Source of the DNA: Bdellovibrio bacteriovorus
GTDB lineage: Bacteria > Bdellovibrionota > Bdellovibrionia > Bdellovibrionales > Bdellovibrionaceae
Assembly (NCBI RefSeq): GCF_002208115.1
Contig: NZ_CP020946.1
Coordinates: 3,596,001 to 3,660,000 of the forward strand
DNA length: 64,000 nucleotides
Direction of reading: 5' to 3'
The position numbers and the translations under genes are program-made. The notes beneath the pieces were generated by a model. The model was not told the DNA's origin and searched no databases. It saw nothing but the letters and a program-made list of their open reading frames with translations. Within the stretch, counting starts at the first letter, position 1. Every line of letters begins with the position of its first letter. Below, one piece after another: positions 1,124 to 13,422 of this stretch.

Positions 1124-3091
1124 TTAGGACATTGGTTGGGGATTCTTTTCCTGGATTGGCGGATACACCGGGATGATCACGATAAACTCTGTGCCTACGC
1201 CCACTTCCGAGCGGGCCTGAATTTCGCCCCCGTGGTTCTGAACAATTCCGTAAGAGATGCTCAAGCCCAAACCGGTCCCCTGTCCGACGCCCTTGGTGGT
1301 GAAGAACGGATCGAAGATTTTTTCCAGGACATCGGCGGACATGCCCTTGCCACTGTCTTGAATTGAGACCTGCACCCAGCCACGTTTGTCCTTGGAACCC
1401 TTGTAGTCCTTCAAAGCCGAAGTGGAAATCCAGATGTGACCGCTGCCTTCAATCGCTTGCACTGCATTGGACAGAATGTTCATAAACACCTGATTCACCT
1501 GGCTGGCATAACAGTGAATCAAAGGAGTTGGCTCGTACTGACGATGAATCTCGATGCGGTTTTTAATTTCACCCTGCAACAGATTCAAGGTGGTGTCGAG
1601 ACTTTGATGAACGTCGATTTCCTGAAGTTTGGCTTCTTCCAGGCGCGAGAAATTGCGCAGCCCCAGAACGATGTCACGGGTGCGGCGGGCCCCGTCCTGA
1701 CAGGACGCCACCAGCTTCGGCAGATCTTTCACGATGTAATCAAACTCGTACTCTTCCTTCAAAGCCGGAAGCTTTGGCGGATCTTTTTCGGCCACTTCAG
1801 CCAGCTCGATCAGTCTTTCCGAGTACTCTTTAAGATGAGTCATGTTGCTGTAAATGAAGCCGATCGGATTATTCAGTTCATGCGCAACACCGGCCACCAA
1901 CTGACCCAGGCTAACCATTTTTGCAGAATGAACAAGCTTGGTCTGAGTGTCCTTAAGTTCTTTGTTGGCCGCTTCCAGCTCGGTGATTTTTTTGCGAAGA
2001 TCCGAACGGGCCACCCAGATTTTTTTGCTCATTTCATTGAAGGATTCAGTCAGAAGGCCGATCTCAGTGTCGTTTTTCACCGGAATGGTGACGGCCTGTT
2101 CCTGGGATTCAAAGGACTGCAGGGCTTCCACCAGTTCGTAAAGCGGCTTCAGCACCCAGCTTGAAGTCACCAGAATCGTCAGAACCAACAGCACAATGAC
2201 AGCACCAACGACGCTGATGAACGCATAGTTCACGTTCTTTAAAACTGCTTTGGCCTCGCTTTTTGAAGCGCCCAAGGCCACATAGAACTTCGTGATACCC
2301 CAGTTCAGCGGATAGATCAAAAAACCATAAGGGGTGCTGCGCACATTCAGATCAAAGAATGGCTCGGCCCCCGGGCGGAAATACGGACGGAAGAAGTCTT
2401 TTTTATAGAGGTAAAAATCCGGATGGCTGGCCACAACAGCCTGGCCGTTGTCCGAGAAAAAGATCAGTTCCAGCTTCAGGCGGCTTTTGATCTTGCCCAC
2501 AAAAGTTTTATTCAGATCCATCACCTGTTCCATGTAACCGACAACGCGGCCCCCGGCCCCGGTGATTTTGGAGATCAAGATCAGATTTACTTTCTGTTTG
2601 TCGCCGAATTCAGCCAAAGAGATTTCACGCTGATCTTTAACCTGCGCCATATACTTCGCAGAAAGGAAGACAGCGTCCTGCACGGGAACAAAGCTGCGCA
2701 CGTTCTCTTTTTCGTCTTTGAAAACCGAGGCCAGCATGCGGCCTTCGCGGTTGAAGAAAGTCAGACTGGAAATATTGTCGGTCTTGATCCACTGGGAAGA
2801 GATATTGCGGATGGTGCCGCTGTCGCCTTCAGCCATGTGATAGACAAGACTTGGATCACGCACATAACGATCCCGCTTTTGCTGAATGCTGGTCAGCAGG
2901 TCCGCCAGAATCAGCTCGACTTCGCGGGCATTGCCGCTCAGGCGCTGGGACAGCTCATGATCGATGGCTTTTTCGTATTTGATCATGGAATAGCCCGTGA
3001 CGAACGCCAGGGGCACGACTGAAAACAGGACGAACCAGATAATCAAGATCGTGCGCAGGGATCGTTTGGGTTTCTTCCGGAGTGTTTTCAC
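1124..3091 (-). CDS. Membrane sensor histidine kinase with periplasmic sensor, HAMP and kinase core, 655 aa
   Basis: A transmembrane two-component sensor kinase. TM1 is at about 13-37 and TM2 at about 288-313, bracketing a roughly 250-residue periplasmic domain probably of the Cache type. A HAMP-like linker and a coiled coil (about 360-390) follow. The phospho-acceptor H-box reads [11 protein letters not shown] with His404; the ATP-binding domain shows the N-box [24 protein letters not shown] and GTGLGLSI. No receiver domain or adjacent response regulator is seen, so its partner is elsewhere. The GTG start overlaps the TGA stop of the anti-sigma-like gene (GTGA), placing it third in a coupled sigma-like/anti-sigma-like/kinase operon. 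The ligand is unknown. Confidence 0.9.
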
Positions 3092-4044
3092 TTTTTGGAT
3101 TCATCCAAAGTGAAGATCAGCCGGATGATCCCGTCCGGCATCACACGAGGGTGTTTTTCTTTGGAAAATTTGGTCTTCCCATAAGTGCCCAGATAGTTCA
3201 TCAGATCCTGATACTTCGCTTCAGGAATTGTAAGGTGATAATACATGGATGTCGGAGTTTTCTTCCAACCCAGCTCCACCGAACCGGCCTTACGACCACC
3301 CAGTTCAAGGATCTTGTCATTGATCTTAGGGCCAATGCTTTCAATGTTAGTCGCAGAGATTTCACCACGATAAAGAAACCCACCGGAGGCCGCCGCAGGT
3401 GCGGTTTCTGCAGGTTTATCCGGCTTTACTGCCACCGCAGCCGGTGCCGCTGGTGTCGGTGTCGCCGATGCCACCGGAACCGGAGTGGCTGCCGCAGGTG
3501 CATCCGGAGTCTTCGCTGTCACGGCTGGAGCCGCCTCTTTAGCCCCTTCATCCACAAATTCCGGAGTCTCCTGCACCACCGTGGTGGTTTCAGTTTTGGA
3601 AACCTCCGCCAGAATCACTTCTTTGGAGCCCGTCAAGGTCCCCAACTGCATGACTTTCTGCCATGGCGTCACGGACAGTAATGTCACAATCACACCGACA
3701 ACGACCAATGCTTCCAATCCCCACTTAAGACCTTGAGGCCATTTGTCGAAGTTGGATTTTTGCATCAAGACTGTGAGATAGCTGGAAGGGGCATTGATTT
3801 GCGAAACAATGGGTTCAGACACACGCGTGTCCGCCAGCAACTCAGCGTACTTCTGGCCATTTTCGATTTTACCCAGATCCAACTGGGCATCGCGCGAAAA
3901 TTTAACATGATCTTCAACCGCAGAACGGCGTTCGGGATCCAGAGTCCCCGTCAAATAATCATAAAGCAGCTCATGCCCGATGAACGGAGAAATCTCTCTT
4001 TTGTTCTTTTTGGAGAGGGGAATTTTATTTTCCTGCTGAGCCAT
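3088..4044 (-). CDS. Membrane anti-sigma-like protein, 318 aa
   Basis: This looks like a transmembrane anti-sigma factor for the upstream sigma-like gene. The cytoplasmic N-terminus (about 20-70) has the helical pattern of anti-sigma zinc-finger domains (LLYDYLTGTLDPERRSAVEDH) but lacks the His-Cys-Cys zinc ligands. One membrane segment lies at about 108-126 (LEALVVVGVIVTLLSV). It is followed by a long Ala/Pro/Thr-rich spacer (about 150-225) and a C-terminal periplasmic domain (about 228-318) whose GG...Y...L.IPEAKYQDLMNYL pattern resembles DUF4349-type domains. It overlaps the sigma-like gene by 20 bases and the kinase by 4. The zinc-free anti-sigma assignment is an inference from context plus pattern. 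Confidence 0.65.
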   Translation of the reverse strand: MAQQENKIPLSKKNKREISPFIGHELLYDYLTGTLDPERRSAVEDHVKFSRDAQLDLGKIENGQKYAELLADTRVSEPIVSQINAPSSYLTVLMQKSNFDKWPQGLKWGLEALVVVGVIVTLLSVTPWQKVMQLGTLTGSKEVILAEVSKTETTTVVQETPEFVDEGAKEAAPAVTAKTPDAPAAATPVPVASATPTPAAPAAVAVKPDKPAETAPAAASGGFLYRGEISATNIESIGPKINDKILELGGRKAGSVELGWKKTPTSMYYHLTIPEAKYQDLMNYLGTYGKTKFSKEKHPRVMPDGIIRLIFTLDESKK

Positions 4045-4495
4045 GCTTTAGTTTACTCACACCTTGGGTCATGCTTCCCAGCTTGCGCAATGCCCGGCCT
4101 AATCTGTATCGAATAGTGCCCTGGGTAATGCCCAAACCAGCCGAAATATCATCATCACTTATCTTCAGGATTTTAGACCAAATAACAGTCAATAGCTCGT
4201 CTTCTGAAGCGGATTTCTGAAATTCACGCCATGGGCCCAGATCGACCGCATCGGGAATCAGCCAACCGGATTCCACAGTGGTGTTGGGACGTCCGCGGGA
4301 CACGCGCACTTTGAATTTGTCCCAGACCGTTTTGGTCGCGGCAACAATAGCTACAGAATTTTGCAAATCAGGATTTCGCGCCTTGCGAGCCCGACAAAGG
4401 GCCAGCGCCTGGGATGAAGCCTCTATCGCTTTTTGATCATCAAGCAGGGCAAAATAGAAAAACAAAGCGATAGATTGTACGTCAGCTTCGGTCAT
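4025..4495 (-). CDS. Small sigma-70-family (ECF-like) factor with clear region 4, 156 aa
   Basis: The C-terminal third is a convincing sigma region 4 helix-turn-helix: VIWSKILKISDDDISAGLGITQGTIRYRLGRALRKLG (in two parts, about 103-139), the part that contacts the -35 element. The N-terminal half is helical but I do not see the usual region 2 signature for -10 recognition, so this is either a very divergent ECF sigma factor or a region-4-only regulator. ATG at 4495 has AAAGG at good spacing. It overlaps the membrane anti-sigma-like gene, the standard arrangement for an ECF sigma and its antagonist, and a histidine kinase follows. Its regulon cannot be read from this window. Confidence 0.7.
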   Translation of the reverse strand: MTEADVQSIALFFYFALLDDQKAIEASSQALALCRARKARNPDLQNSVAIVAATKTVWDKFKVRVSRGRPNTTVESGWLIPDAVDLGPWREFQKSASEDELLTVIWSKILKISDDDISAGLGITQGTIRYRLGRALRKLGSMTQGVSKLKHGSAGK

Positions 4496-4554: not shown

Positions 4555-5674
<1,120 letters not shown>

Positions 5675-5700: not shown

Positions 5701-6732
5701 TTATTTTGACGCAGGTGCACACTGAATCGTAAGGTCGGTCCCCGTCAACTGACCACGGAAGCGAACTTCCAGGCCTTCATTCAGGGTTGTCTCAGCGACC
5801 ATGGTTTTGTCGATATCCAGATCCACCGCTTCAATGGCAATGCGCTCGTCTTGCGCTGCTGCAGCGGGTTTCAGGCGCAAAGTGATTCTTTCTGTCGAGC
5901 GGCCGCGGAAGATTTCACGCTCCACTTTATTGGCAACATCCCACACGATCTCTTCGTCACGACGGGTTTCTTTGCGACCGGATTCAGAGTGAGTCAGCGA
6001 ACACTTCACACGGCGCAGATCGGCTTTGGGACGCTTGAAGGACTTGTCAGACAGACAAACCGCTTCCACTTCCTTTTGAATTTCAAGGTTAGTGACCTTC
6101 AGACTGATCTGCGAACCCAGGCCCGAGCGTACCGAGAACTTGCTGTCACCGCGTTGCTGGTGCAACTGGATTTCACCCAAAGCGGCGCGACCGGTCTGAG
6201 CCGGCGTCAGCAACAAACGGCCTTTGCCATAGGAATCAACCAGGCTGCCCAGAATGTCGTAACCCTGATCGTTCTTCCCGCTCCAGAACATGTCGCGATA
6301 GATCTGACGTCTTTGCGGATTGAACGGATTCATATTCTGCAGGAATGTGCGATCTTTCAAATCCATTCCGTTCACCACACAACGAGCGGTGCTCATCGCC
6401 GGCAAAGTTCCAGGACTGCTGACTTGAGTGTTGGTGGTGCACATGCGGTTGTAAGTTTCCACGCGCATTTCGCGGGCGCAGTTGTTGTTCAAGGCATCGT
6501 TCAGCAAAGCATCGCAGTACGCATTTTTGGAGGTCAGCTTCTGGCGGCCGGTGGTGCAGCCATTGAATTTATATTCGTAGGTGAATTCACCCTGCACATC
6601 CACAGGAGTTGGCGTGGGTGTCGACGTTGTCGGAACCGGAGCCGCACCTCCGCCGCCACCGCCTCCGCCATTAGAGCAGGCCGCCACGGACAAAGCCAAA
6701 ACAGACAAAGCAAGTTGTAGATGAATGCGCAT
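5701..6732 (-). CDS. Lipoprotein of unknown function, 343 aa
   Basis: A predicted lipoprotein. ATG at 6732 has a strong GGAGG six bases upstream; the signal peptide ends in a lipobox VAAC, and the mature N-terminus starts with SN followed by eight Gly, then a Pro/Thr linker. The body has many Cys residues (several pairs between about 60 and 130) and a beta-rich C-terminal half ending in a Cys-containing strand (TIQCAP). I recognise no family. The absence of Asp at position +2 makes outer-membrane sorting likely. It lies 102 bases upstream of the mreB start on the same strand, but mreB has its own promoter. It is divergent from the giant lipoprotein gene. Confidence 0.75.
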   Translation of the reverse strand: MRIHLQLALSVLALSVAACSNGGGGGGGGAAPVPTTSTPTPTPVDVQGEFTYEYKFNGCTTGRQKLTSKNAYCDALLNDALNNNCAREMRVETYNRMCTTNTQVSSPGTLPAMSTARCVVNGMDLKDRTFLQNMNPFNPQRRQIYRDMFWSGKNDQGYDILGSLVDSYGKGRLLLTPAQTGRAALGEIQLHQQRGDSKFSVRSGLGSQISLKVTNLEIQKEVEAVCLSDKSFKRPKADLRRVKCSLTHSESGRKETRRDEEIVWDVANKVEREIFRGRSTERITLRLKPAAAAQDERIAIEAVDLDIDKTMVAETTLNEGLEVRFRGQLTGTDLTIQCAPASK

Positions 6733-6897
6733 GCTATACCTCCACACACGGTCAACACCGCCCTTACTTCAAAGACCCTGCCAACGTCATAATGCAATTG
6801 TTAGAGAACCAGAGGCCCCTTCTGTTACTCCTCTGACAGGTGTGACAATTTGAGACACTTTTCCGCCAGATTTCGCGAAAAACCAGTGATCCTCGTT

Positions 6898-6933: not shown

Positions 6934-9900
6934 ATGAACGTAACGGCACTATTGATACTCCTTATCACCGGTCTGGTCTCGGGTTGCACCCTCGTGGGCA
7001 ATCTCACGGACTATAATTCCCTGACGCCGCCGGTTCTGACCGACAGTAACGGAACCAAAATTGAATCCCTGATCATCAATTCTGCCGACAGTCTTTCCAA
7101 CTACAACCTGCGCGGTGAATGCTACTATCCAAATCAAAAAATTGACGTGATCATTCAGCCCAGCCTGAACAGTCTGTCGACGATGGAACCAAAAACCTTC
7201 ACCACCGTCTGCCAGGATGGAAGCTTCAGCCTGGATGTAAATACACAAGGCTGGCCGGATGCGGAATACACTGTCAAGCTGGAAGTGACCTCATTAGCGG
7301 GAGTAAAATCTTCGAACGAAACTGCTGTCACCAAAGACATCATCGCCCCGAATGTCAGTTTCTCCACAGCCCTGCCCGCGGAAGTGGGTAATGCGCTGAT
7401 CGTGGCCCTGCCGGTGGATGGTACTTGCGAAAATGATGACGGACCTGTGTCGATTGTTTCTCAAGGCACGACGCTGGCGACTTTCACGTGCACCAACGGG
7501 ACTTTCAGTGGTCCGGTGGTTGTCGGGGCGCTCAATGACGGCGCGACTGTTTTACAGGTTTCACAAACCGACAGCGCCGGAAACACCGGCACCGCCAACA
7601 GCTCTTCTTTCAATAAAGATTCCATCGCCCCTCTTCTGCCGGTGACCTTCGGTACGTTGGGAAGCGCTCTATCCAACAATGACACGGATCGCACGGTCAC
7701 AGTGACGGTACCAGCGGACGCCACTCAGTATCGCTATGTCGTTGTGAAAGACACTGATTGCAGCAATCAGTGGGCGGCGTTGATGGCTGCCACGCCAGTG
7801 CCTGCCGGGACCCCGGCGACTTTAAGTTTTGCAGGCGATGGCCAATACCGCCTTTGTTTCATTGCCGGAGACCAGGCCGACAACTGGCAACCGGACACGG
7901 CAGTCATTGAATCCGGCGCTGTCACTATCGACACCGTGGGACCGGCTTTGAATATCACAAGTCCTCTCGCTGGCAGCAAACATAAATCCACTGTCACTGT
8001 TTCAGGTACTTGTGAAGCCGGGGCCTCTTTAAATTTTGCCGGCGACTATACGACTTCGCCATCCACCGGCACCTGCAGTGTGGGTGGAACTTTCAGCTTT
8101 AACATCACGCTGACGGCCGGGGATGGGTTGAAAAACTTCACGCTGTCCTCGACTGACGGCGCAGGCAACACGACAAATCACACCGCCTATTCTTTGATTC
8201 GTGACAATGTGATTGTGGCTCCGTCCGTGACGTTAAACACAGCAAGCACCACAAACAACCCTGCCGCGAAGTTCACAGTCAACGACTGCAGTGATGCGAC
8301 TTTCATTCTGATGAAAGAAATCAATGCGCCTCCGGCCCTGGGGGATTCCGGCTGGATCGCCTGCTCGACTGCGGCACAAAACTATACCTTTGATCTGAGT
8401 GCCAATGGCGATCAGCAGGGGCTTCGCAACGTGCGCTTCTATGCCCGTGATGAAGCTGGGAACATTTCCACCGCAACAGTCTTTACTATCACCTATGACA
8501 GCAAGGCTCCCATTTTGACTTTGGATCCGGTGCCGACCCTGGCCATCAATGTCAGCTATCCCTTTGTGGTTTATGTCACCGAAGCCACCGTGACTGCGGC
8601 GGACACTTTGTATTTGGACTATTCCACTGACGGCGGCACCACCTGGAATGTGGCCACCAGCCGTGCGTTGGGACTTGCAGGTCCCATGAACAACAAATCC
8701 TTCACCGTGAATTGGACGCCGAATGCCTACAACACCAATGTGCTGGTGCGCGCGCGTTTGACCGACAGCCACGGATTGACTGGCACCGGCACCAGCAACG
8801 CTTTCGATGTGATCCTGGACACCATCAAGCCCGTTATCACGGCGAGTGAAATGAAAATCAATGGACAGCTTGATCCGGATGATACCGTACGGTCTTACGT
8901 CACCGTCAGCCTGAAAGCGTCAGACGCGGAAACTGCTGTCACCAAGTTCTGCTTAAAGACCACCAACAGCGCTCCGAATGCCTCTGACAGTTGCTGGGTC
9001 AGCGTGAAAGCACCAAAACCAGGCCTTGCTGAACTGCCGACCTTAACCCTGGTGGATTTTGATTTCTTCCTGGGAATCAATTTTGGCAGCTATAGCATCT
9101 ATGCCTGGGTGATGGACGTCGGTGGCAATATCAGCACCAATTCCGCAACCCTTGAAAAAGACTATAACACCATCAACTACATCAACGATCCGCCTCCCCT
9201 GGTGGCAAACTTCCTGACGGTGAATTCGACCACCCCGAATAATCCGCCAAATACTTTTGACATGAACTTTGCCAATGGCGCTGCCGCCCACATCAGTTGG
9301 CAAGCCAGTGACAATGGCACGATCGCCAAGGTCGAACTGTTTTATGCCATCGACGGTCAGCCGTTCACTCTGATTTCAGGTGCACTGGCGAACAATTCCA
9401 GCAATGCGACAGCGTGTGCGTATTCGGCTCCGCGCACGGGTTGTTATCTTTGGAACTCGACTGTTCCCAACGACACTTTCTTCAAGCTGCAGATTCGCGT
9501 GACTGACAACAACGGACAGACCTCTCAGGTCACCAGTCCCCCGCTGAACAGTGGTGCTTACAATCTGATTGCCGGAAACCAGGATCCAGGACATGACGGA
9601 AATGCCAAAAGCACCGTCTTTAATACCAATGTGAACACAGACACCGCGCCCGGCACAGTGCTCGTCACTACCGATGGAAAAATCTTCTTCAACGATTCCT
9701 CTTACGGCATCATTTACATTGATCCGACCACCAACAACTCGAAGGTCCTTTTGCGTCTGGCAAAAGAAAATGAAAATGCCTTTGGCGATGGCATTCCGGT
9801 GGAACAGGCTCGCGCCAAGGCGATCTTGCGTACAGCGCTGGACTATCAGAACCGCATTCTGGTTTATGACCGCGATATGATCCGTCGAATCGACACCAAC

Positions 9901-11787
9901 GTCACACCGATGACAATTGAAACCCTGATTGGTGCGGACCCGGCTGGAAATCTTGGAACGGACACCGCCGACACTGTGGCCGATCCACGGGACTTGAGAA
10001 TCAATCTGATCAAGACTTCGTCTGTTGATGAAACCTGGCCGATCCGCCGACGTTCTCCGTTCATCCCTATGCCTAACGGGGATCTTTATTTCATTTCAGA
10101 AAAACCCCAGACAGCCAAAGACAACGGGGGTCGCATCCGCCTGTATAAAGGTTCTTTGGCGGTTCCGCGTGTGGAAAGCGTGCGATTCTCAGGAGCTGGG
10201 GTCTTTGGTCAACCGGCCTGGGATCTGAACACGATGCCTTATTCATTCTTCAGCTTAAAATTTGACCCTGCGACCAGTGCCATTCAGAAAGCCTACGTTC
10301 AGGCAATCTATAGTGTCCCGGGAAATTCTTACGGCCCGATGACAGAACTTGATCCGGTGACCCTCGTGGGAAATGGTGTTTTCCCGAATCATCCGTTTGG
10401 AAACTCTTCTCTGACTTATTACGACGTCCAGGGCATGGACGGCCGCGTTTACCGCGCCAATCGATCCACCGAAAACGGCGTCAGTCAGTTGCAGGATGAC
10501 GGCACCTGGGTGCGGGTTCTGGGAACCGGTTCTCAAGGGGAATGTGCCGATGGAGTCGATGCGACTTCCTGCCCGGTCGCACTGGATGACGTCTTTGTGG
10601 ACCGTTATGGCCGAATCTTCTTTTCTGCGCGAGGAGTTATCCGCACTGTCGTGAACGGCAAAGTCTATACCCTGTTCGGTCAGCGCAAAGACGCTGGGGA
10701 TGGCGGCTCCGGATTTGATATGCGTCTGGCTTCCGTTACCTACATTGATCACAGTGTGGGCGATGGTGTGATGTTGTTGGATCACCAGCAAAACAAACTG
10801 CGCGAGGTATTCCCGGGGGCATCTCCGGAAGTCCGCCTGGTGGCCGGTGACGGCGCCAATGCGGGAGTCAATTTCGGTATTGCCGCCAATCTGCAGTCCA
10901 TTCTTTTGGGGAACTGGTGGGACCCGAATCAGTTTGCCACCAATCCGGCCAATGGTGATGTTTACATGAACTGCGCCAACAACAAAGTACTGGTCACTCC
11001 TCCAAGCACTTATACGGTCTATCACAGTGTCTGCCGTCTGAATCGCGCCACCGGCCTGTGGGAACAGATGATGAACGGCGAAGGTGCCACACCAAGCCAC
11101 TCTCAGACTTCCATCAATTACGGTGATCTGCAGTTGGTGGGTTATTCTCCAGAGATCGTGGGCTTCAAGGCCGGAAATCTTTTGATGAACAATCTTTACT
11201 GGAACGGAACCGCTCACCACAATGCCACCTTCCGTCTGATCACGCCAACCACCACCCATCACGTCGGTGGTCGCATTAGCGTGGACTCAGATGCTGATGA
11301 CTGTCCGGACGGGCTTTCCACAGACTGCTCATTGGGTGTGAGCGGGGTTCACCGAGTGGCTGCGCCTGTGTATTTTGATCAACTGAGCGGCTGGATGTAC
11401 ACCCCGCCAGTAAATGCCTCAATCCTGACGGCGAAAATGCACGTGCTGTATTCTGGCAACGTCAAGACCTTGCTGACACTGCCGCAGATTCCAAGCGCCT
11501 ATGCTTATGATTCTGCGGGAGCCGCAATTTACTACTGTGGAAATGTCGACAAGAAACTTTATAAGGTCGCGATTCATAATGCGGGAGATCTGGGAAATAC
11601 CGCCGTATGGCCATTGGCTTCCGGGACTCACTTTACCATCACCGAGCTTCCGATGCCGACGGACTCGATTACATGTCAGGGGCGCCGCATTCTGATCAAG
11701 GCCGCTTCGGGACCAAAACCAAAACGCCTGGTCTTTATGGCCATGCAAAATGGTCTGCCGGCCGTTTCGGAATACTTTATTCCTTAA
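6934..11787 (+). CDS. Giant surface lipoprotein with Ig-like repeats and an NHL/propeller-like C-terminal half, 1617 aa
   Basis: A lipoprotein: short signal peptide with lipobox LVSGC (Cys18). The first 800 or so residues carry repeated immunoglobulin-like units, each opening with a D-x-x-x-P signature near residues 134 (DIIAP), 229 (DSIAP), 333 (DTVGP), 523 (DSKAP) and 629 (DTIKP) and containing the GTCE/GTCS and SxDGAGN patterns of bacterial Ig folds. From about residue 890 the pattern changes to repeats of the kind seen in NHL or beta-propeller domains (VLVTTDGKIFFND, DYQNRILVYDRD, DVFVDRYGRIFFS). Such architecture suggests a surface adhesin or carbohydrate-binding protein, but no ligand can be named. 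The frame cannot extend upstream because TAG precedes the ATG. It ends with TAA abutting the glpD stop. Confidence 0.8.
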   Translation: MNVTALLILLITGLVSGCTLVGNLTDYNSLTPPVLTDSNGTKIESLIINSADSLSNYNLRGECYYPNQKIDVIIQPSLNSLSTMEPKTFTTVCQDGSFSLDVNTQGWPDAEYTVKLEVTSLAGVKSSNETAVTKDIIAPNVSFSTALPAEVGNALIVALPVDGTCENDDGPVSIVSQGTTLATFTCTNGTFSGPVVVGALNDGATVLQVSQTDSAGNTGTANSSSFNKDSIAPLLPVTFGTLGSALSNNDTDRTVTVTVPADATQYRYVVVKDTDCSNQWAALMAATPVPAGTPATLSFAGDGQYRLCFIAGDQADNWQPDTAVIESGAVTIDTVGPALNITSPLAGSKHKSTVTVSGTCEAGASLNFAGDYTTSPSTGTCSVGGTFSFNITLTAGDGLKNFTLSSTDGAGNTTNHTAYSLIRDNVIVAPSVTLNTASTTNNPAAKFTVNDCSDATFILMKEINAPPALGDSGWIACSTAAQNYTFDLSANGDQQGLRNVRFYARDEAGNISTATVFTITYDSKAPILTLDPVPTLAINVSYPFVVYVTEATVTAADTLYLDYSTDGGTTWNVATSRALGLAGPMNNKSFTVNWTPNAYNTNVLVRARLTDSHGLTGTGTSNAFDVILDTIKPVITASEMKINGQLDPDDTVRSYVTVSLKASDAETAVTKFCLKTTNSAPNASDSCWVSVKAPKPGLAELPTLTLVDFDFFLGINFGSYSIYAWVMDVGGNISTNSATLEKDYNTINYINDPPPLVANFLTVNSTTPNNPPNTFDMNFANGAAAHISWQASDNGTIAKVELFYAIDGQPFTLISGALANNSSNATACAYSAPRTGCYLWNSTVPNDTFFKLQIRVTDNNGQTSQVTSPPLNSGAYNLIAGNQDPGHDGNAKSTVFNTNVNTDTAPGTVLVTTDGKIFFNDSSYGIIYIDPTTNNSKVLLRLAKENENAFGDGIPVEQARAKAILRTALDYQNRILVYDRDMIRRIDTNVTPMTIETLIGADPAGNLGTDTADTVADPRDLRINLIKTSSVDETWPIRRRSPFIPMPNGDLYFISEKPQTAKDNGGRIRLYKGSLAVPRVESVRFSGAGVFGQPAWDLNTMPYSFFSLKFDPATSAIQKAYVQAIYSVPGNSYGPMTELDPVTLVGNGVFPNHPFGNSSLTYYDVQGMDGRVYRANRSTENGVSQLQDDGTWVRVLGTGSQGECADGVDATSCPVALDDVFVDRYGRIFFSARGVIRTVVNGKVYTLFGQRKDAGDGGSGFDMRLASVTYIDHSVGDGVMLLDHQQNKLREVFPGASPEVRLVAGDGANAGVNFGIAANLQSILLGNWWDPNQFATNPANGDVYMNCANNKVLVTPPSTYTVYHSVCRLNRATGLWEQMMNGEGATPSHSQTSINYGDLQLVGYSPEIVGFKAGNLLMNNLYWNGTAHHNATFRLITPTTTHHVGGRISVDSDADDCPDGLSTDCSLGVSGVHRVAAPVYFDQLSGWMYTPPVNASILTAKMHVLYSGNVKTLLTLPQIPSAYAYDSAGAAIYYCGNVDKKLYKVAIHNAGDLGNTAVWPLASGTHFTITELPMPTDSITCQGRRILIKAASGPKPKRLVFMAMQNGLPAVSEYFIP

Positions 11788-13422
11788 TTAGAAGTGTTTT
11801 TTCCATTCCACTTCGCGGGCCATGTATTCGGTCAGCATGTGCAGTTCTTCTTTCAGGCGGGCTTCGTTCCAGCCCAGCTTTTCCTGGAAGACTGTACCGA
11901 TTTCTTCCATGTGCTTCACCCCGTGATTTCGATCCGCCAGGAACAAAGGCACCCGGCGGGCAAAGAAGTCACGCATATGCAGACACATCGTGGAATCAAT
12001 GGCCTGAGCCGCTTCCAACTGCCAGTAAGTCATGTCAGAGGAGTACTTGTTCAGAATCTCTTCACCTTCCATACCATAACGTTCTGCCAGCAGACGCATG
12101 TCTTCGACAGAATGCCCGGTTTCATGGGCCCATACGTCCGCCTGAACCTTGGCTTGCTGGAAAGCATCCACGCTCGTGTATGGATTAAGTGGCGTGACCG
12201 TGTTTGATTTGGACCAGGTCACACGCTCTTCAAAGGTAAAGAACTTCAACGCCGCTTTGACGGTCTGTTCACACATCAGGCGGTAGGTGGTGTATTTTCC
12301 ACCTGCCACGAAGGTGATTCCACGGTCATCAGACAAGATCGTGTGCTCGCGGCTGGTTTTGCCTTCGGTACTGGAACCGTCAGCCACCAGCGGACGAACA
12401 CCGGCATAGCTGGCGATAATATCGTGAGCCGTCAGGTTGGCGCCCGGGAAGTAATGATCCGTGATCGAAAGCAGATACTTCACATCTTCCGGTGTGGTGG
12501 TTACGTTTTCCGGCGACTCCTTAAAGTCGGTGTCAGTGGTCCCAATAATGATCATCTCGTGACGGGGAATCCCGAAAACAATACGATCACTTTTTTCTGC
12601 TCCCATCACCACGGCACTGGTCAACGGCAGGCGGTGCTTCGGCAGTGTTAAGTGAATGCCTTTGGTGGGGCGAAGAATCTTTTTCCAGTCTTTGAAAATG
12701 CTTTCACCCAGCTCGTCCGTCCACGGGCCCACGCTGCTGATCACATGGCGGGCTTTGACCGTGAAATTTTCCTTGGAATGCTGGTCTTCGCATTTTACAG
12801 ATTGAATCTTTCCGTCCGGACCAAAATTCACGCCCGTGGCTTTTACATAGTTCACACAAAGCGCGCCGTTTTCATTCGCCGATCTCATCGTTTCATGAAC
12901 CAGGCGGTCATCATCCATGTACGCGTCAGAGTAAATGTAAGATCCAAGCAGGTTGTTCGGACGAATCGCCGGCATGTGCTCGATAGACGCTTTGGCATTC
13001 AGACGTTCATGCATCTCCGGGGCCTGGAACAATGACAGGGCATCATACAACCACATGCCCAGACCCATCTTGCCCATGCCCACACGGCTTTCCTGATAAA
13101 GAGGAATCATGAAACGCAACGGATGCACCAAATGCGGCGCCATTTCAAACAAACGGCCCCTTTCATTCAGTGCCTCGAAAACCAGTTTAAATTCCATGTT
13201 TTCCAGATAACGAATGCCACCGTGAATAAGTTTTGAGGACTTTGAAGACGTGCCAGAAGCAAAGTCGCGGGCTTCAATCAAAGCCACACGCATACCGCGC
13301 GCCGACGCATCACGCGCCACCCCTGCTCCGTTGATTCCTCCCCCGATTATCACCAGATCAAAATCCTGGGATTTCATCTTGTTGATATTTTGAATTCTGT
13401 TTGCGAAGGAGAAATTCTTCAT
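11788..13422 (-). CDS. glpD: Aerobic glycerol-3-phosphate dehydrogenase GlpD, 544 aa
   Basis: A membrane-associated FAD enzyme that oxidises glycerol-3-phosphate to dihydroxyacetone phosphate and passes electrons to quinone. The FAD-binding motif IIGGGINGAGVARDAS is at about 25-40, followed by the family signature SGTSSKSSKLIHGGIRYLE and the conserved VSSVGPWTDEL and GGKYTTYR segments. Length is normal. ATG at 13422 has AAGGA eight bases upstream. The gene follows the putative acetyltransferase by 3 bases, so the two are co-transcribed. No glycerol kinase or facilitator is adjacent. In a predator it could consume glycerol-phosphate derived from prey phospholipid; that is inference. Confidence 0.95.
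   Translation of the reverse strand: MKNFSFANRIQNINKMKSQDFDLVIIGGGINGAGVARDASARGMRVALIEARDFASGTSSKSSKLIHGGIRYLENMEFKLVFEALNERGRLFEMAPHLVHPLRFMIPLYQESRVGMGKMGLGMWLYDALSLFQAPEMHERLNAKASIEHMPAIRPNNLLGSYIYSDAYMDDDRLVHETMRSANENGALCVNYVKATGVNFGPDGKIQSVKCEDQHSKENFTVKARHVISSVGPWTDELGESIFKDWKKILRPTKGIHLTLPKHRLPLTSAVVMGAEKSDRIVFGIPRHEMIIIGTTDTDFKESPENVTTTPEDVKYLLSITDHYFPGANLTAHDIIASYAGVRPLVADGSSTEGKTSREHTILSDDRGITFVAGGKYTTYRLMCEQTVKAALKFFTFEERVTWSKSNTVTPLNPYTSVDAFQQAKVQADVWAHETGHSVEDMRLLAERYGMEGEEILNKYSSDMTYWQLEAAQAIDSTMCLHMRDFFARRVPLFLADRNHGVKHMEEIGTVFQEKLGWNEARLKEELHMLTEYMAREVEWKKHF

Follow-up and report, generated by a model that had tools for sequence, protein, structure and literature searches.

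We analysed a window of 64,000 nucleotides from the genome of Bdellovibrio bacteriovorus (contig NZ_CP020946.1, positions 3,596,001 to 3,660,000; all positions below are those of the window unless another place is named) and identified a unit of four genes on its minus strand, namely mreB, a gene for a sigma-like protein (sig), a gene for a membrane-bound anti-sigma-like protein (anti) and a gene for a sensor histidine kinase (HK). Our best explanation, to which we give a probability of a little under one half (about 0.48), is that sig and anti form a membrane-held sigma-like switch in the mreB operon, from which the kinase is separable. The pairing of the two proteins had been proposed in an earlier note on this DNA, and it is supported by profile comparisons, weak fold evidence, co-variation and natural fusion.

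The earlier note had described three overlapping open reading frames (ORFs) on the minus strand. The ORF list agrees exactly: sig and anti overlap by 20 bases (4025-4044), and anti and HK by 4 bases (3088-3091). The true unit has four genes: mreB, in the same orientation, ends 59 bases before the start of sig. The same note suggested control of the surface and shape genes nearby; with mreB as the first gene of the unit, the link to a shape gene is tighter than was stated there. The unit contains the following features:

5646-5674, minus strand: promoter-like site, TTGACT and TAGACT with a 17-base spacer, ending 47 bases before the mreB ATG
4555-5598, minus strand: mreB, first gene of the unit (Pfam MreB_Mbl E 7e-153, conserved start, gene order)
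4025-4495, minus strand: sig, sigma-like protein of 156 aa (ORF list, Pfam, profile comparisons)
4280-4495, minus strand: predicted sigma-2-like three-helix region of sig, residues 1-72, in which both marker motifs of sigma-2 are missing (model, profiles)
4067-4246, minus strand: sigma region 4 with helix-turn-helix, residues 84-143, with GTIRYR at 126-131 (Pfam, profiles)
3088-4044, minus strand: anti, membrane-bound class I anti-sigma-like protein of 318 aa (ORF list, Pfam, homologues)
3730-3999, minus strand: cytoplasmic anti-sigma-like domain of anti, residues 16-105, zinc-less (H46, S50, A53), with zf-HC2 just under cut-off
3667-3723, minus strand: single transmembrane helix of anti, residues 108-126 (hydropathy)
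3100-3393, minus strand: predicted ferredoxin-like domain of anti in the periplasm, residues 218-315, better conserved than any other part of the protein (AlphaFold2, structural match)
1124-3091, minus strand: HK, sensor histidine kinase of 655 aa (ORF list, Pfam, HELNNP box)
2225-2992, minus strand: periplasmic sensor of HK (hydropathy), between transmembrane helices at 2993-3049 and 2168-2224
1814-1909, minus strand: HisKA with HELNNP box and phospho-acceptor H404 (codon 1880-1882), Pfam just under cut-off
1166-1504, minus strand: HATPase_c catalytic domain (Pfam E 3.7e-25)

For mreB we used the conserved ATG at 5598, with the stop at 4555; the ORF list starts it at TTG 5646.

Gene order and conservation of the unit

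Gene order was read in 126 stretches including the window. They were drawn by matches to sig, anti or HK, and the 108 stretches bearing mreB are thus not a random sample. Among these 108, the order mreB-sig-anti-HK was present in 86, and 11 had mreB, then a single ORF made of sig and anti, then HK; six had mreB and HK without the pair, four had mreB, sig and anti without HK in the stretch, and one (L169) held mreB and a sig ORF ending in a membrane helix. Of the remaining 18 of the 126, four were truncated contigs and 14 came from another class. The pair followed mreB in all stretches that held mreB, sig and anti (101/101). The gene order, on which the earlier note had staked its reading, is therefore conserved. 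Overlap of the sig and anti ORFs was found in 74 of the 86 four-gene stretches, a count that may be overstated because the ORF starts are the first possible ones.

Within the family (66 genomes), sig was matched in 50 (E 0.01), anti in 62 and HK in 66 (E 1e-40). In the order, sig was matched in 107 of 140 genomes at E 0.001, where the match in one genome (G053) is a protein elsewhere in the genome, and it had no match at this threshold in the other 33. The profile search with sig spanned the phylum and matched 106 of 368 genomes (E 1e-08); outside the window's order there were only three genomes, from another order of the same class. A near-identity scan of genome contigs gave 6 loci, all of them Bdellovibrio or Bdellovibrionaceae.

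Both proteins are under purifying selection. In 9 pairs of relatives, the ratio of nonsynonymous to synonymous substitution rates (dN/dS, NG86) ranged from 0.02 to 0.07 for sig and from 0.04 to 0.07 for anti; in many of the pairs compared in this study dS was near or above saturation, and some ratios were not computable. Chance ORFs were ruled out by the conservation and by these ratios.

Several stretches have unusual forms of the unit. Two small genomes (L149 and L168; 2.4 and 1.8 Mb) carry mreB, sig and an anti of 133 or 118 aa that ends after the membrane helix, with no HK in the stretch; here the sig-anti core outlives the sensor parts. In L038 the mreB ORF lacks its part before residue 143 and directly adjoins an upstream ORF that is itself shortened, as if DNA had been lost there through a deletion or an assembly error. 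In L083 (G019) anti is shortened by a TAA. L051 was unscored in the tree described below and was counted as split in the gene-order tally.

The window's source genome is a single contig of 3.77 Mb. It has a second mreB at 2.13 Mb (G000:C1:2132486-2133508), 48% identical to the mreB of the window, and a lone mreC at 1.45 Mb (G000:C1:1449774-1450217). An mreBCD cluster was ruled out by these positions.

The sigma-like protein and its partner

A strong region 4 had been claimed for sig. The claim holds for the family, in which Sigma70_r4_2 matches 28 of 37 members (best 6.3e-08), but not for the window protein alone, which stays under the Pfam cut-off (E 0.0014, 18.6 bits, cut-off 25.7). In profile-profile comparison with 20 extracytoplasmic function (ECF) sigma factors of the order, full-length sig gave E 4e-07, mostly through region 4, and region 4 alone gave E 6.8e-07. 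Region 4 had a lower dN/dS than the other half in all 7 computable pairs of 9 (0-0.03 versus 0.03-0.11). The recognition helix is kept in the split sigs, with R131 in 54/54 and the signature GT..R in 47/54; these 54 unfused rows are 15 picked from the family's 49 and 39 of the wider group, and L169, a fusion in which the Arg is kept and GT is not, was left out.

The statement that region 2 is not recognisable stands for the sequence and is doubtful for the fold. Sigma70_r2 (PF04542) was not among the best 25 of 26 Pfam families for the 37 sig members, and it gave no match in four further sigs. Sigma-2 is marked by core-binding and melting motifs, here counted as the [DE]xxQ[EDT] type and W[LIM]; they occur in 1 and 5 of the 54 sigs, and both are present in 20/20 of the ECF proteins, a score which is partly built in because these proteins were picked by their region-2 match. 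The N-terminal part of sig matched the whole ECF profile with E 0.022 and the ECF N-terminal half with E 0.0099. The register of the sigma-2-like alignment is the expected one (20-42 on 46-68), and 4 of 200 column shuffles score as high.

The model of sig is of low confidence, with a mean predicted local distance difference test score (pLDDT) of 53.7 and values of 60-85 by blocks of ten in residues 1-60, and has three helices followed by four. Its residues 1-72 align with sigma-2 of AlgU (Z 8.0, root mean square deviation (rmsd) 2.3, 69 aligned), a match to be taken with caution since such Z values are common for helical bundles and can arise by chance, and also with that of SigW, SigH and sigma-E. 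In the structural list, the top 28 rows are all sigma-factor or polymerase-initiation entries, matched within residues 1-75. With Foldseek, the first 18 rows for the sig model were sigma-factor or polymerase entries, of which the best had E 0.16 and none was significant. We read sig as a protein of ECF ancestry in which region 4 is kept and region 2 is eroded. As its region 2 is without the core-binding and promoter-melting motifs, sig is probably no stand-alone canonical sigma factor, and its stand-alone service to RNA polymerase appears doubtful.

For anti, the description as a protein without zinc ligands and with a membrane helix was borne out. In the Hx3Cx2C motif, as read from the sequence, the His is kept (H46), while S50 and A53 stand at the Cys positions, and the helix lies at residues 108-126. 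According to the cited part of PMC7406223, zinc-less domains make up about 44% of known class I anti-sigma domains, Hx3Cx2C is found in about 56% and at least one membrane helix in about 65% of known members; zinc loss in anti is therefore ordinary. The window protein matches zf-HC2 with E 3.1e-04, just under the cut-off, and 6 of 26 members match at E 0.05. One homologue (L154) is above the cut-off (25.1 versus 22.2) and another (L152), with the full zinc motif, aligns over the anti-sigma domain. The N-terminal anti-sigma domain is supported by this homology, and its modelled helices are of low confidence. Among 103 anti homologues, Hx3Cx2C was found in three (L152, L153 and L154), which are exactly the three of the class's other order; in this count 2 of the 103 end before the domain, and 11 fused proteins were scanned over the first 200 residues only. 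The simplest reading, based on three outgroup proteins, is that the window's order lost the zinc.

The AlphaFold2 model of anti has a mean pLDDT of 54.6 and reaches 79-92 by blocks of ten in residues 221-318. In structure this periplasmic domain resembles PilO (Z 6.2) and PulM (Z 5.8) to a middling degree, and of 12 invariant columns 10 fall within anti residues 252-308. No Pfam family was found for it, and apart from zf-HC2 no family matched more than 1 of 26 members. Among solved structures compared with anti, none was below E 0.03, and the few matches hit other parts than the periplasmic domain.

Co-variation between the proteins was measured as distance correlation controlled for the HK kinase and MreB, with 80 loci, which leave out fused, short or odd ones, and 500 permutations. 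Region 2 of sig co-varies with the anti-sigma domain (r 0.335, 0/500 permutations), and this value is above that of the two halves of sig with each other (r 0.229). Whole sig with the anti-sigma domain gave r 0.229 (6/500), and sig with the periplasmic domain of anti gave r 0.143 (21/500). There was no co-variation of sig with the HK sensor (r -0.077, 439/500).

These results bear on a rival explanation, in which sig is a working ECF sigma factor of the RpoE/RseA type with a merely diverged region 2; anti would sequester it, regulated proteolysis would free it, and it would bind core RNA polymerase and open its own promoters. The sigma-2-like and sigma-4 regions are in the right order and register, region 4 is strongly constrained, and a class I anti-sigma-like membrane protein is co-encoded, whose lack of zinc is common among such proteins, as said above. 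We nevertheless consider it somewhat unlikely, with an appreciable chance of being true, for the region-2 marker motifs are lacking in nearly all sigs, Pfam gave no region-2 match in the scope stated above and the unit has a conserved promoter that is sigma-70-like. The genus has 24 genomes, and across the 22 that were aligned 12/12 hexamer positions of the TTGACT/TAGACT site are conserved at 90% or more. A consensus scan also picks this site; it found 3 sites where shuffled sequence gave an expectation of 4.4, so by itself the scan is no proof and the conservation is the evidence that counts. Because the conserved promoter looks sigma-70-like, ECF-style self-regulation is not indicated.

Fused forms and the kinase

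The fused homologues are encoded by 11 ORFs that sit between mreB and HK and are 438-524 aa long, and a hydropathy scan found a membrane helix in 10 of the 11 (not in L050). On a tree of MreB and HK, fusions occur at three places, in one genus (g17), in G030 and in G125, and absences in at least two places; the tree was made by a quick procedure, and some of its branches are long, including those of L169 and L050. In genus g17 the fusion is present in 10 of 14 genomes, three have neither gene, and one contig starts inside HK. The sig profile found only 3 of the 11 fused proteins at E 0.001, and the homology of the fused forms rests on a profile of ten. With this profile the fused N-terminus is homologous to sig (E 5.5e-10, mostly through region 4), and fused region 4 matches region 4 of sig with E 2.8e-10; the fused N-terminal half alone is weak, with E 0.0085 to sig and 0.1 to the ECF proteins.

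The recognition-helix signature GT..R is found in 0/11 fused proteins. Since 10 of the 11 rows are from one genus, it does not mean eleven separate events, and the L169 fusion keeps the Arg, so this loss is not true of every fusion. The sigma-like part of the fused proteins had dN/dS of 0.16, 0.09 and 0.14 in three pairs, with dS near or above saturation, and it was below the anti-sigma part (0.26 and 0.23) in both computable pairs. The sigma-like part is kept in the fused proteins, though not as a canonical DNA reader.

A second rival is a pseudo-sigma module in which the sigma fold is a protein-binding part only, within a membrane complex with MreB and/or HK and with no DNA output. It would explain a constrained sigma-like part without the signature, whose region 4 is still homologous to that of sig, and the invariable place of the pair behind mreB. 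However, the split forms keep the recognition helix, MreB and HK remain without the pair in 6 stretches, and the fused dN/dS values suffer from the saturation of dS. We judge it quite improbable.

A third possibility is that the pair is a decaying relic retained through co-transcription with mreB. The loss of zinc and of the region-2 motifs, fusion with loss of the signature and complete loss in some lineages are what decay would leave. It is hardly credible, since dN/dS is well below 1 in split and fused forms alike and sig is still matched in 107 of the 140 genomes of the order.

In HK, the periplasmic sensor that had been described is supported by hydropathy, which places it between two transmembrane helices. 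HAMP and HATPase_c are above their Pfam cut-offs, and HisKA has 24.7 bits against a cut-off of 26.9. A HELNNP-type box is present in 100 of 101 HK homologues, the single miss being truncated; by simple patterns G1 was found in 88 and G2 in 94 of them, with some of the misses truncated. No response regulator was found by Pfam among the seven typed ORFs between 67 and 13422, as the earlier note had observed for the unit. Such kinases without a response regulator in the unit are common in general, so its absence alone is unremarkable.

The further suggestion that the kinase and the anti-sigma-like protein answer one signal was not supported. Sig does not co-vary with the HK sensor, HK stays beside mreB in 6 stretches that lack the pair, the pair remains in 4 stretches that lack HK, and mreB is absent from the 14 stretches around HK homologues of another class (14 of 15 such genomes), which share 33-58% identity over the matched part. 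A signalling unit of kinase and pair is thus unsupported by the gene-order losses and the co-variation. Among three typed stretches of that other class, the HK homologue adjoins an MlaD-type lipid-transport gene in L177 and L180, not in L174.

The same data speak on a PhyR-like partner switch, in which phosphorylation by HK would free sig or another sigma factor from anti. A kinase, a sigma-like and an anti-sigma protein in one unit resemble the set of PhyR, NepR and EcfG (cited part of PMC8999054), and PhyR-NepR is in the structural list of sig (Z 6.0, rmsd 3.9, 114 aligned). We hold this to be very unlikely, as no receiver-domain match was found in sig or anti by Pfam, besides the independent losses and the lack of co-variation with the sensor.

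Around the unit, HK is followed on its own strand by a PapD-like chaperone gene (67-819). Of the 65 other family stretches, 13 have a relative in this position, though several of the 65 are too short for its presence to be judged. Upstream of mreB, and in the same orientation, all three stretches that were typed (L189, L190 and L193) carry a DAO-type (glycerol-3-phosphate oxidoreductase-like) gene. In the window the DAO-type gene (11788-13422, minus strand) is separated from mreB, as if by insertion, by two ORFs, one at 5701-6747 (minus strand) without Pfam match and one at 6934-11787 (1617 aa) on the opposite strand.

Proposed mechanism and known systems

We propose that sig comes from an ECF sigma factor and anti from a class I anti-sigma factor of the zinc type, and that the two would still be one working unit. 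The putative operon mreB-sig-anti-HK is retained across the greater part of the window's order, and three genomes of the class's other order have it too. Anti would span the inner membrane, its cytoplasmic helices binding sig and holding it at the membrane, and its periplasmic ferredoxin-like domain may sense the state of the envelope. Once released, sig in the split forms would work through the conserved region-4 helix-turn-helix. Sig is more likely a tethered sigma-like regulator than a stand-alone canonical sigma factor, and HK may be a separate envelope sensor in the unit of MreB, with no fixed part in the pair.

Several results weigh against this proposal. The profile signal of region 2 is weak by itself (E 0.0099), the comparison of its motifs with ECF proteins is partly built in, and a helical-bundle match with Z 8 can arise by chance. 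The models of sig and anti are both weak by mean pLDDT, and Foldseek found nothing below E 0.001 for either. Region 4 of sig co-varies weakly with the anti-sigma domain (r 0.128, 26/500), and the permutations control shared ancestry only through the HK kinase and MreB. No ECF-type self-regulated promoter was seen for the unit in the consensus scan and genus alignment. The constrained fused forms without the recognition signature suggest a function independent of DNA reading.

A more far-reaching history can be offered as a guess, which is itself unlikely. A sigma factor may be leaving transcription: in the Bdellovibrio lineage an ECF/anti-sigma pair locked in the mreB operon would have shed its region-2 motifs, later fusions (in one genus and two further lineages) would have lost the DNA-reading signature in the genus and in one lineage, and selection would keep the sigma fold as a membrane signalling component tied to the elongation machinery of MreB.

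Within a single order the pair is split, fused or lost, which makes a natural series for asking how much of a sigma factor can go while the fold is kept. Both MreB proteins of Bdellovibrio were reported as essential, with their separate roles unexplained (cited part of PMC6985089). An operon of one MreB, a membrane-held sigma-like switch and an envelope kinase could couple growth inside the prey to the state of the wall, and the unit gives a short list of genes for deletion.

In open-licence literature, searched mostly by title listings, we found no description of an mreB-sigma-anti-sigma-kinase operon. In G003, which we take to be strain HD100, the sig gene lies before rpoD (202 kb versus 229 kb). 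Lambert et al. (2012) listed the sigma genes of HD100 from bd0242 (rpoD) upward, so sig is not among the genes listed in the cited part of that paper (PMC3464611). The RpoE-like proteins Bd0743 and Bd0881 of HD100 are sigma-like proteins of the same species as sig; the same part of the paper says that they have no anti-sigma neighbour, whereas sig has one.

Fusions of sigma and anti-sigma factors of the IutY type are known, in ECF243 and also in ECF48/52/53 (PMC8999054, in the part drawn on here). Our 11 fused homologues likewise have an N-terminal sigma part, a C-terminal anti-sigma part, a membrane helix and a periplasmic part in one chain; but the proteolytic fragment of IutY is, in that account, an active sigma factor, while the fused forms here are without the recognition-helix signature. 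The sigma mimic PhyR of the EcfG/NepR/PhyR system (cited parts of PMC8999054 and PMC8103513) is comparable as a sigma-like protein that is not necessarily a sigma factor, together with an anti-sigma factor and a histidine kinase. It differs in that here there is no receiver domain, the anti-sigma-like protein is membrane-bound and HK is separable from the pair. Another close comparison is with ECF sigma factors and their class I anti-sigma factors (RpoE/RseA, SigW/RsiW and AlgU/MucA), with which the pair shares adjacent genes (overlapping in most loci here), sigma-2-like and sigma-4 regions, an N-terminal helical anti-sigma-like domain, one membrane helix and a periplasmic domain. In contrast to them, the region-2 motifs and the zinc site are lost here, the promoter is sigma-70-like, the periplasmic domain is ferredoxin-like without a Pfam match, and mreB and a histidine kinase belong to the unit.

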